From positions 372,001-436,000 of the forward strand of contig BPIC01000004.1 of the NCBI GenBank assembly GCA_026003895.1: DNA of 64,000 nt. The letters run 5' to 3'. Below are positions 2,987-63,866 of this stretch, piece by piece (position 1 is the stretch's first letter; every line of letters starts with the position of its first letter). The position numbers and the translations under genes were made by a program. The notes under the pieces were generated by a model. That model was given only the letters and a program-made list of their open reading frames with translations. It made no database searches and was not told the origin of the DNA. The stretch is from Dehalococcoidia bacterium (GTDB taxonomy: Bacteria > Chloroflexota > Dehalococcoidia > SpSt-223).

Positions 2987-6706
<3,720 letters not shown>

Positions 6707-6708
6707 CG

Positions 6709-11055
<4,347 letters not shown>

Positions 11056-55175: not shown

Positions 55176-56192
55176 TTAACGACCGAGGCCGAACGTGATG
55201 ATCGACGCGAGGCTGAGCGATGCGATCAGCAGGGCGGTTCCCAGTCCCAGCAGGAAGGGGGAGAGCCCTGTCTTGCGGAGGTCGGCGATCGAAGTGTTCA
55301 GCCCGACGCCAGCGAGCGCGAGCAAGATGCCAAAGCGAGCCGCTTCGTCCATCCAGCCGGTCAGCGGCGGCTGGATTACCCCAATGGTGCGAAGCAGGAC
55401 GACCGCCAGAAAGCCGACGACGAACAGTGGCACGGCGCCGGCCGCGCCGCGTCGCGCCGCTGCCGCACCCCGCCCCCACCACCACGCGATGCCGACGATC
55501 AAGGGCGCCATCAGTGCGTTGCGCGTCAGCTTGACGATGGTCGCCGCGCTGAGTGCTGCCGAGCCGTAAGCGGCTGCCGCTGCGACGACTTGGCTGGTGT
55601 CGTTGATTGCCGTTCCGGACCAGAGGCCGAAGACCACCTCAGGGAGCTGGGTCGCGATTCCGACGAGCGGATAGACAAAGACGGCCAGCGTGCCAAAGAG
55701 GGTGATCGTCGCGACCGCGAAGCTGACCTCGCTCTCCTCGGCCTCGATCACCGGTGCGGTCGCGATGATTGCGGAGTTGCCGCAGACGGCGGTGCCGACG
55801 CCAATCAGCAGTGCTAGCCGACGCGGCAGTCCGAGGAGGCGGCCGATGCTGTAGGCAAAGACGAGCGCGATCGCCATCAGGACGATGATCAGCGCCACCG
55901 CTTGGAGGCCGATGGCGAGCACCTCGCCGAGCGCCAATCGGGCTCCGAGGAGGATGATGCTGGCACGCAGGATGCGCTGGACGGCAAAGCGAACGCCGGG
56001 CTTTGCTCTGCTCGGCAATCTGACCGTGTTTGCTAGGACGAGGCCGAGGATGACGGCCACGAGCACTTCGCTGATGGTGGCCGGAAGGAAGCGGCCGACC
56101 ACTCGTGCGACGATGGCGACGGCGAACACGATGACCAGCCCCGGCACGAGAGTGCGCAGCCAGAGCGGTGCGGCGACCGCGAGAGCAGTCAT
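55176..56192 (-). CDS. YeiH-family putative membrane exporter
   Basis: A 338-residue protein with about ten hydrophobic segments, of the UPF0324/YeiH family. Motifs: SEVLVAVILGLVLANTVRLP, RILRASIILLGARLALGEVL, GVGTAVCGNSAIIATAPVIE with the conserved CGNSAI, and FGLWSGTAINDTSQVVAAAA. The family has been linked to sulfate or sulfonate export in some bacteria; this is annotation by relation and not shown here. The ATG overlaps the stop of the oxidoreductase gene (ATGA), so the two are coupled. A 208-bp gap without recognisable features separates it from the giant protein gene. Confidence 0.9.
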   Translation of the reverse strand: MTALAVAAPLWLRTLVPGLVIVFAVAIVARVVGRFLPATISEVLVAVILGLVLANTVRLPSRAKPGVRFAVQRILRASIILLGARLALGEVLAIGLQAVALIIVLMAIALVFAYSIGRLLGLPRRLALLIGVGTAVCGNSAIIATAPVIEAEESEVSFAVATITLFGTLAVFVYPLVGIATQLPEVVFGLWSGTAINDTSQVVAAAAAYGSAALSAATIVKLTRNALMAPLIVGIAWWWGRGAAAARRGAAGAVPLFVVGFLAVVLLRTIGVIQPPLTGWMDEAARFGILLALAGVGLNTSIADLRKTGLSPFLLGLGTALLIASLSLASIITFGLGR

Positions 56193-61305: not shown

Positions 61306-62448
61306 ATGCGTGTCTCGTGTCTCCAGGAGAACCTCAAGCGCGGCCTGAGCATCGTGGGCCGTGCTGTTGCCACGAAGTCGACGCTGCCGATTACCGGCAA
61401 CATCCTTCTGGCGACTGACGAGGGACGGCTGCGTCTTTCTGCCACCAACCTGGAGATTGGCATCACCTGCTGGATCGGCGCGAAGGTGGAAGAAGAAGGC
61501 GCGATCACGATTCCTGCCAAGCTGCTGACCGAGTTCGTTGGCGCCCTGCCGAACGATCGCATCGACCTCACGCTTACCGGCAAGATCCTCCGCCTGCGGT
61601 GCGCTCGCTTCGAGGCGCGCATGAATGGACAAGATGCGGACGATTTCCCGCCGGTGGCGACGTGGGAATCGCTGGACGGGGAGAGCGCCTCGGTGACGCT
61701 CGATCCGGAGGCGTTGCGCGAGGCGATTTCGCAGGTGGTGTTTGCTGCGGCATCGGACGAAGCACGGCCGGTGCTTGCGGGCGTGCTGCTCCAGATCGGT
61801 GACGACGAGATGACGATGGCGGCGGCGGATGGTTTCCGGCTCTCGGTACGCCGTCTCCCAGTGCTCGAGCGCAGCGGGGATGGGCCGGTGGAGATCATTG
61901 TGCCGGCGAAGTCGCTCGCCGAGGTGGGGCGTGTGCTTGCCGATCAGGACGATCCGGTACGCGTGGCCATACCGCGCGGCAAGGGCCAGATCCTGTTTCA
62001 TCTGAGCGGGGTCGACCTCGTGTCGCAGCTCATTCAGGGCAATTTCCCGAATTACGCTCAGTTGATCCCGACAGACTACGCCAGCCGTGTTGTGGTCAAC
62101 ACCGACGATTTTCTCGCCGCGACCCGTCCGGCGGCGATCTTCGCCCGGGATAGCAATGGGATTGTCCGCATCGAGTCGTTTCCTGGCGAAGATCTTGCTC
62201 CCGGCAAGATGATCATCCGTGCACGCGCCGAAGAACTGGGCGACAATCAAGGCGAAATCGACGCCGTTGTCGAGGGCAGCGAAGCGAAGATCGCCTTCAA
62301 CGCCAAATATCTCACGGACGTTCTCTCCGTGATCGACGCGCCACAAGTTGCGCTCGAAACGAAAAGCCCCTCCTCCCCCGGTGTCATCCGTCCTGTGGGA
62401 GAAGACTCCTTCACCCACGTCATCATGCCGATGTTCGTGACGTGGTAG
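61306..62448 (+). CDS. dnaN: DNA polymerase III subunit beta (sliding clamp)
   Basis: A 380-residue clamp with three repeated domains. Landmarks are MRVSCLQENLKRGLSIVGRA, TLPITGNILLATDEGRLRLS and TNLEIGITCWI, then AAADGFRLSVRRLPV and LIQGNFPNYAQLIP, and the C-terminal HVIMPMFVTW. The usual clamp end is close to MPMRL/V, so MPMFVTW is a slightly altered, extended end. Its last 21 bp are one copy of a direct repeat that recurs at 63846-63866, so the 3' end may have been rewritten by an integration. GAGGAG is the Shine-Dalgarno. dnaA is not adjacent. Confidence 0.96.
   Translation: MRVSCLQENLKRGLSIVGRAVATKSTLPITGNILLATDEGRLRLSATNLEIGITCWIGAKVEEEGAITIPAKLLTEFVGALPNDRIDLTLTGKILRLRCARFEARMNGQDADDFPPVATWESLDGESASVTLDPEALREAISQVVFAAASDEARPVLAGVLLQIGDDEMTMAAADGFRLSVRRLPVLERSGDGPVEIIVPAKSLAEVGRVLADQDDPVRVAIPRGKGQILFHLSGVDLVSQLIQGNFPNYAQLIPTDYASRVVVNTDDFLAATRPAAIFARDSNGIVRIESFPGEDLAPGKMIIRARAEELGDNQGEIDAVVEGSEAKIAFNAKYLTDVLSVIDAPQVALETKSPSSPGVIRPVGEDSFTHVIMPMFVTW
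62428..62448 (+). repeat. direct repeat copy 1 (end of dnaN), possible attL
   Basis: These 21 bp cover the last seven codons of dnaN including the TAG. They recur at 63846-63866 in the same orientation with one difference (C at 62441, T at 63859). Flanks of the two copies are unrelated. Confidence 0.85.
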
Positions 62449-62489
62449 GGCGACCACAATTTATAGGGTAGACTTGCCCGCTGTATTGG

Positions 62490-62699
62490 CTATATAGTGG
62501 TTTCGGTAGCTTTACTCATGTAATCATCCGAGGAAGCAAGACCCAGTTCAATGAGGTGGATCAGTTCGATAGCAGCCGCGTTCGCCGGGTTCCGTTCTGA
62601 CTTGCTCCCTCTCCCGCCGTCGTAGCACACGAAACAAACGTGTGTTCCTGCGACCCCCTTCTCCATCACCAATCTGCCTCGGCCATGGTTGTCAGTCAT
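62490..62699 (-). CDS. doubtful small hypothetical protein
   Basis: A 69-codon frame starting MTDNHGRGRLVMEKGVAGTH with a CFVC pair and a helical end (AIELIHLIELGLASSDDYM). No Shine-Dalgarno is evident. It may be a genuine small cargo gene of the inserted segment or chance. The rest of 62449-62978 holds nothing else I can support. Confidence 0.25.
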   Translation of the reverse strand: MTDNHGRGRLVMEKGVAGTHVCFVCYDGGRGSKSERNPANAAAIELIHLIELGLASSDDYMSKATETTI

Positions 62700-62978
62700 G
62701 AACAAGGGCAGCTTGGCTCAAAGTTCGGCCAAAGTGAACGCCGAATACTTTTCCTCGAATGATTGCTGTGGCAATGTACAGACCGAACGATGTTCGTCGG
62801 AGCGATTCAGACGCGGGGTGTCGTGCCGGTCCGTAGTTTCGTTCCGTGACCAGAGGGCGCCTTGCTCTACGCCAAGCTGATACAGCCTTATCGAGAGCCT
62901 GTTAGACGTTACTTGATCATTCGGGACCATACTCGATTAGGTAGTATACATTATATCCATGGCTGCCGAGGAGGTGCG

Positions 62979-63779
62979 ATGGACATTAAGGACCAAGAAA
63001 AGGCCGCAGTCGGTCGGCATGTCACTGAAGCGCGGGAACATGCCGTGATGTGGGAGGAGTCCCTTAAGGCATTGCTCGAATGTTTTCGGATCGTTGATAC
63101 CGCCAAGCTCAAGGGTGCAAATAAGGTGCGGTTCGGACTTCTTCTAACCGCATGGAACCATCTTATGGCTTCGTACGATCTGGCCGTTCGGGGCTACTTT
63201 GGTCCCGCATTGGCTCTCCTACGGATGGGTCGAGATTCCTATCTCGCCGCCTGGTATTTGGTCGCTGAGCCGAAAGAGTGGCGCAAGTTTGCATATAAGA
63301 AGTATCAAGCTGAACGCTTCGAAGCTCGCAAGATGGCAAATAGCATTAGGTCCTTCACTTTGAAGTATATAGAATCACAGAACAACAAGACAAAGCAGGA
63401 AATCAAACAGGAGAAGCAGGAATTCAAGAAAGTTTTCGACGGGTTCTTCAAGCACACGCGAGTCTTGAATGACTTCAATCATGTCAACGGGCGAATGCTT
63501 TCGCTTGCCTTCGTGGACAATCGACCAAAGGGGTCTGGATCATCGTACTGGGTTGGCCCGAGAGCTGACCCAGCAGCGTTCGGTGGTGTCGCCTTTTTGG
63601 CTGCACTCATCCTCTCGTATCAAGCAACGGCAATGTCGGTTCTATACGATCTAATGCAGATAAAGGAGCTAGCTGCGCTTCAAGACTTGGAGACGCGAAT
63701 CCTCAACTACATGGAGTCGCAGAGAAAATTTCCTAGTTGGAAGAAGAGGACCGCAGCAGAGGAACGGGGTGGACAGTAG
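62979..63779 (+). CDS. hypothetical protein encoded in the inserted segment
   Basis: A 266-residue, mostly helical, cytoplasmic-looking protein. ATG at 62979 follows GAGGAGGTG; the frame is open further upstream (to 62862), but that part lacks a ribosome site. Notable parts: HAVMWEESLKALLECFRIVD; the hydrophobic helix pair LLLTAWNHLMASYDLAVRGY and FGPALALLRMGRDSYLAAWY; a very Lys/Glu-rich coiled-coil stretch (QNNKTKQEIKQEKQEFKKV, about residues 136-154); and a C-terminal hydrophobic helix FGGVAFLAALILSYQATAMS before a charged end. Base composition and codon use differ from the neighbours (many AAG, AAA, ATA codons). I do not recognise the family. An AT-rich TATACA at 62945-62950 could be its -10. 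Confidence 0.8.
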   Translation: MDIKDQEKAAVGRHVTEAREHAVMWEESLKALLECFRIVDTAKLKGANKVRFGLLLTAWNHLMASYDLAVRGYFGPALALLRMGRDSYLAAWYLVAEPKEWRKFAYKKYQAERFEARKMANSIRSFTLKYIESQNNKTKQEIKQEKQEFKKVFDGFFKHTRVLNDFNHVNGRMLSLAFVDNRPKGSGSSYWVGPRADPAAFGGVAFLAALILSYQATAMSVLYDLMQIKELAALQDLETRILNYMESQRKFPSWKKRTAAEERGGQ

Positions 63780-63845
63780 TTTGAGGCCGTCCGAATCATA
63801 GCTGTATGGGCATCATGCGAGTTTGGTGCACTTAAGCCGAATACT

Positions 63846-63866
63846 CCGATGTTCGTGATGTGGTAG
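63846..63866 (+). repeat. direct repeat copy 2, possible attR
   Basis: Second copy of the dnaN-end repeat, 20 of 21 identical and in the same orientation, about 67 bp after the end of the hypothetical gene. GC-rich sequence resumes right after it. Confidence 0.85.

Follow-up and report, generated by a model that had tools for sequence, protein, structure and literature searches.

Integron cassettes form strings of small units served by the tyrosine integrase IntI at attI and attC sites, and elements of the staphylococcal cassette chromosome (SCC) type in rlmH use the serine recombinases CcrAB. In Dehalococcoides, ssrA-specific genomic islands employ the serine recombinase DsiB (McMurdie 2011, PMC3146451, which also draws a comparison with SCC), and diverse large serine recombinases (LSRs) have been found to converge on a single conserved target gene, for genes other than the one considered here (Durrant 2022, PMC10083194). 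Neither dnaN, the sliding clamp nor the Chloroflexi appear in the main text of the latter paper (PMC10083194), dnaN is not mentioned in PMC3146451, PMC2764846, or PMC13390414, and the open-access literature searched yielded no account of integration at dnaN, subscription journals and preprints lying outside that search. The 1.4-kb segment described here is very probably a small mobile cassette integrated site-specifically into the dnaN 3' end, the latter serving as attB for an LSR family that extends across the class.

The window analyzed is a 64,000-nucleotide stretch of a Dehalococcoidia genome, labeled G000, with G001 and G002 as its congeners. According to the ORF list, dnaN, encoding the beta-subunit sliding clamp (380 aa), occupies positions 61306..62448 on the forward strand; its product ends in HVIMPMFVTW*, the gene is 92% and 82% identical to its counterparts in G002 and G001, and its 3' end is the attachment site considered here. 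An earlier note on this DNA had claimed that the last 21 bp of dnaN recur 1.4 kb downstream in the same orientation with one mismatch and without similarity past either copy, and the repeat search bears this out. The final 21 bp of the gene (attL-side core, 62428..62448, forward strand, CCGATGTTCGTGACGTGGTAG) are matched at 20 of 21 positions by a second copy (attR-side core, 63846..63866, CCGATGTTCGTGATGTGGTAG) lying 1,418 bp downstream on the same strand, and the identity breaks off sharply to the left and right of the copies. With up to three mismatches tolerated, the core pattern gave two matches in 19 kb and none in 200 shuffles, and the 3.98-Mb genome, searched for more repeats as the note had proposed, holds no copies besides these two. 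The window core reads GTGAYGTGG, versus GTNCARTGG in the rest of the class. The clamp ends in FVTW in G000 and G002 and in FVQW in G001 and nearly all others, and the second window copy would encode FVMW; because of this variation at the core (window 62437-62448), the end residues of the clamp may record successive integrations.

Between the copies lies a unit of 1,397 bp (62449..63845) whose GC content is 51.3%, compared with 62.4% in dnaN, 65.6% in the 2 kb past the second copy, and 64.3% in the whole window; it is the lowest value among 1,253 window segments of equal size, and the drop in composition followed by a return to GC-rich sequence was as the note had described. The separate gene that it placed between the copies is also present: the sole plausible gene in the unit runs from 62979 to 63779 on the forward strand behind a good ribosome-binding site (GAGGAGGT) and encodes a 266-aa protein of the DUF5677 family (Pfam E 1.5e-7, 32.1 bits vs a cut-off of 27.1), with an upstream TTG at 62862 as another possible start, giving 305 aa. 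A search of the remaining 392 genomes of the class sample gave no homologues of this cargo at E<=1e-5, and none were found in plasmids. A single-sequence structure prediction was all-helical with a pLDDT of 50, too low to interpret, and the only PADLOC result, a match of this protein to Cas8b, was set aside as probably spurious. No LSR remnant was detected between the two core copies, in keeping with the note's description of an element without its own integrase. The left arm of the second core (63816..63845, forward strand) comprises the 30 bp where LSR-type junctions carry an element-derived arm; it matches the arm profile (55 copies) weakly, within the top 4.6% of background and below 82% of true copies.

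The class-wide form of the core, CCVATGTTYGTNCARTGGTRR, encodes MPMFVQW* and constitutes the 3' end of nearly all dnaN genes read. It is present in 313 of 393 genomes scanned, with two or more copies in about 90 of the 393 (counted from the table) and a maximum of 17, while a reversed control pattern gave single matches in nine. Extra copies were seen at 18 of the 55 dnaN loci read, and these copies, 22 in total, are without exception located past the dnaN stop and oriented like dnaN; when relatives were sampled without selection, 8 of 41 had extra copies. Contigs end within 1.5 kb of dnaN in 13 of 39 cases on the 3' side and in two on the 5' side, an excess expected for a variable or repeated site. 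Relatives also show the bracketed arrangement of the window with different cargo. Judged from these sequence comparisons, the dnaN 3' end is a class-wide integration hotspot for phages, islands, and strings of small cassettes, rather than the unusual attachment site that the earlier note took it to be.

Empty and occupied sites can be paired in relatives. In genus g85, the flank follows dnaN at once in G245, an empty site, while G154 reaches the same flank only 6.6 kb later, past its last core copy; G417 and G096 also have the flank after a core copy, which in G096 is 4.0 kb from dnaN, and G334 has a near-clean empty site in which dnaN and the flank adjoin save for a small indel. Likewise, the sequence past the last copy in G199 and G210 is the sequence directly after dnaN in G123 and G014, and these flanks align from the first base after the stop. 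Such pairs indicate that the DNA between dnaN and the last copy was inserted and that dnaN was left intact. Together with the bracketed loci carrying other cargo, the empty and occupied sites of g85, another genus of the class, support the proposal, made in the note, of site-specific integration with dnaN as attB. An empty site in relatives thus exists for the family (G245, and nearly so G334), but for the window insertion no base-exact one was found: in the congener G002, dnaN is followed by ~0.66 kb and katG without an insert; G000 has 3.4 kb in this place, and the intergenic DNA does not align.

A tyrosine recombinase, the enzyme that the note had suggested looking for, was not found adjoining the dnaN arrays checked, and the enzyme linked to the site is instead an LSR. 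Its gene lies directly behind dnaN in convergent orientation in G033, G052, G082, G199, G210, and G145 (503-612 aa), and the same layout is seen in named Dehalococcoidia and Chloroflexi contigs. The G033 protein has resolvase, recombinase, and zinc-ribbon domains, and the C-terminal residues of these LSRs, TT-x-QT-W/S-A and variants, are an antisense reading of the core itself. A tree built from 103 LSRs places every one of the 21 whose 3' end bears a core inside one 26-member clade (SH-aLRT 96); among the other five members, L195 and L196 have the core just beyond the gene in opposite orientation and L187 has it ~270 bp off. No LSR of this clade was found in the window unit or in its genome, which is 80.5% complete, and the window unit is therefore classed with the LSR-less units of this site rather than with the LSR elements. 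That genome does contain two related LSRs of 564-595 aa (G000:C4:42720-43061 and 55478-55816), of a type distant on the tree and 380 kb from the locus.

The IMG/VR contig G394 (40 kb) combines capsid/head, portal, and terminase genes with an LSR beside the core, and this core appears to be an attP-like, unintegrated site since its left arm is not dnaN. A second IMG/VR contig, G393, is similar, and G395 begins within a dnaN tail. Locus L150 of G393 and locus L190 of the Chloroflexi MAG K_Offshore_80m_m2_170 have the same core and arms, so that the element is common to a phage and a binned genome. In G033 (L048), a second, broken LSR at 8750-9439 stands behind the attR-side core, making two stacked elements at this locus. 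Truncated LSRs directly after dnaN were seen in two Dehalococcoides-like, single-contig genomes of 1.4-1.5 Mb (L071 in G049 and L072 in G014), and from their sequences these look like relics of former integration at dnaN among bacteria that have been cultured.

In the mechanism we propose, the LSR would recombine a site on the element with the dnaN 3' end as attB. At most copies the left edge of identity is ATS-CCVATG, and elements with a common right arm often also share synonymous FVQW* codons and the stop, an example being TTC GTT CAA TGG TGA ctaaatcc in G199 and G210. Since in several elements the right arm brings these codons and the stop along with it, crossover would take place where the core begins on its left side (CCVATG). 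Each integration would resupply the last codons of dnaN, and with these supplied by the element the essential gene would stay intact. The window unit, being without an integrase, would have been inserted by an LSR acting in trans, the source of which may be an element since lost or one absent from the incomplete assembly.

Units of this kind are common in the class. Among 65 core-bounded units measured, the median length is 2.2 kb and 29 are under 2 kb, which makes the window unit typical. Most small units have no LSR and stand in tandem arrays, and LSR-less units of similar size commonly have intact cores at both ends. In G381, two overlapping contigs together show eight core-like sites, dnaN's own included, no more than 7 kb from dnaN. 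The congeneric G013 and G144 have two units in common, at 93-96% identity, in opposite order. Array cargo includes HipA, ParE, toxin-antitoxin systems, OLD/GajA-like (Gabija-like) ATPases, ABC transporters, and PAS kinases. Judged by its sequence, the window unit fits this cassette type: it occupies the same site, is of similar size and low in GC, and carries a single gene. At L168 in G273 (3648-3751), two cores stand 83 bp apart and enclose a spacer of 62 bp, seemingly a mini-unit that is empty.

A comparison with the described systems shows both likenesses and disparities, and by analogy the dnaN system would work like the ssrA islands and SCC with the addition of integron-like arrays. The ssrA islands (PMC3146451) belong to the same bacterial class, have the LSR beside attL on the opposite strand as at dnaN, are flanked by 20-bp direct repeats that, like the dnaN core, derive from the 3' end of a conserved single-copy gene, and occur in tandem with several members lacking an integration module, as in the dnaN arrays. 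In contrast, the dnaN system targets a protein gene rather than tmRNA, its units are mostly small and LSR-less, and the repeat itself codes for the C-terminus of its LSR. The dnaN LSRs make up a separate clade in a tree that did not include DsiB. The window unit was rejected as an ssrA island of the DsiB type because no tRNA or tmRNA gene was found near the locus and its target is dnaN.

Like SCC, the dnaN system combines serine recombinases, insertion at the 3' end of a protein-coding housekeeping gene with that gene kept intact, composite arrays, and recombinase-less members; unlike SCC, it involves another gene and another phylum, a single LSR instead of a CcrA/CcrB pair, and mostly one-to-three-gene units. 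With integrons it shares strings of one-to-few-gene units, each bounded by sites and with no recombinase aboard, one anchored end, and a unit order that differs between relatives. It departs from them in its serine recombinase, in a site that is the dnaN 3' end and not attI/attC, and in an orientation and structure unlike those of folded attC. The window unit was also rejected as an integron cassette, as no tyrosine recombinase stands beside the arrays checked and the cores are derived from dnaN. We raise as a tentative possibility, one we lean slightly against, that the whole constitutes an integron-like system run by LSRs, in which small recombinase-less cassettes with a full core would be stored in tandem behind dnaN and gained, lost, or reordered in trans by the LSRs of resident phages and islands.

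The 1.4 kb could instead be the remainder of a larger LSR element, a phage or island, after deletion of its recombinase, and would then never have been a self-moving unit. Several relatives, the Dehalococcoides-like G014 and G049 among them, have decayed LSR pieces next to dnaN, which lends this some weight, as do the many loci that retain only a few bases of LSR-like arm. We nevertheless consider it less likely, given that no LSR trace is detectable between the window copies and that comparable LSR-less units with both cores intact are common and vary in order among related genomes. Still more doubtful is that the dnaN tail was duplicated, in tandem or segmentally, or that homologous recombination imported it with a neighboring gene, in either case without a site-specific recombinase: downstream copies in G009, G051, G013, and G006 are dnaN-like for 25-60 bp, past the core, but in the window and at most copies identity ends at the left edge of the core, as at LSR junctions.

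Foreign DNA flanked by direct repeats is also what a transposon or insertion sequence would leave by target-site duplication, an origin to which we give almost no credence: 21 bp is long for such a duplication, the repeat is always the dnaN 3' end, downstream and on the same strand, a fixed site that contradicts this reading, and neither a transposase nor terminal inverted repeats are present inside the segment (ORF list, repeat search). That the genome is only 80.5% complete might invite suspicion of an assembly artefact, yet the segment lies within a 466-kb contig; a chance repeat would sit poorly with shuffles that give no matches and with the recurrence of the same layout in unrelated assemblies, and both are exceedingly improbable. 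Against the integrated cassette, still the preferred reading, count the genome's lack of an LSR of the dnaN clade, the failure to find a base-exact empty site for this insertion, the weak fit of the left arm at the second copy, and the core sequence that differs from that of the rest of the class.

Phages, islands, and cassette arrays would thereby share an essential replication gene as their landing site throughout a large and mostly uncultured class. Predicted attB/attP pairs and a recombinase clade are now available as candidates, and a possible serine-recombinase counterpart to integron cassettes is offered. The arrays also provide a catalogue of cargo located by position alone, including toxin-antitoxin, OLD/Gabija-like ATPase, transporter, and DUF5677 genes.

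Two further observations concern the core. In family f20, the sole core match in many genomes ends in TGGGAR rather than TGGTRR, and the core-bounded arrays of this family (L083, G139:C5; L084, G240:C194) stand behind a sequence other than dnaN, a possible second landing site. At L054, L039, L051, and L067, the loci with the dnaN-like stretches of 25-60 bp, the extended likeness contains synonymous changes and three of the four segments carry toxin-antitoxin genes; the exchange there may have been homologous or may have used a different crossover point.
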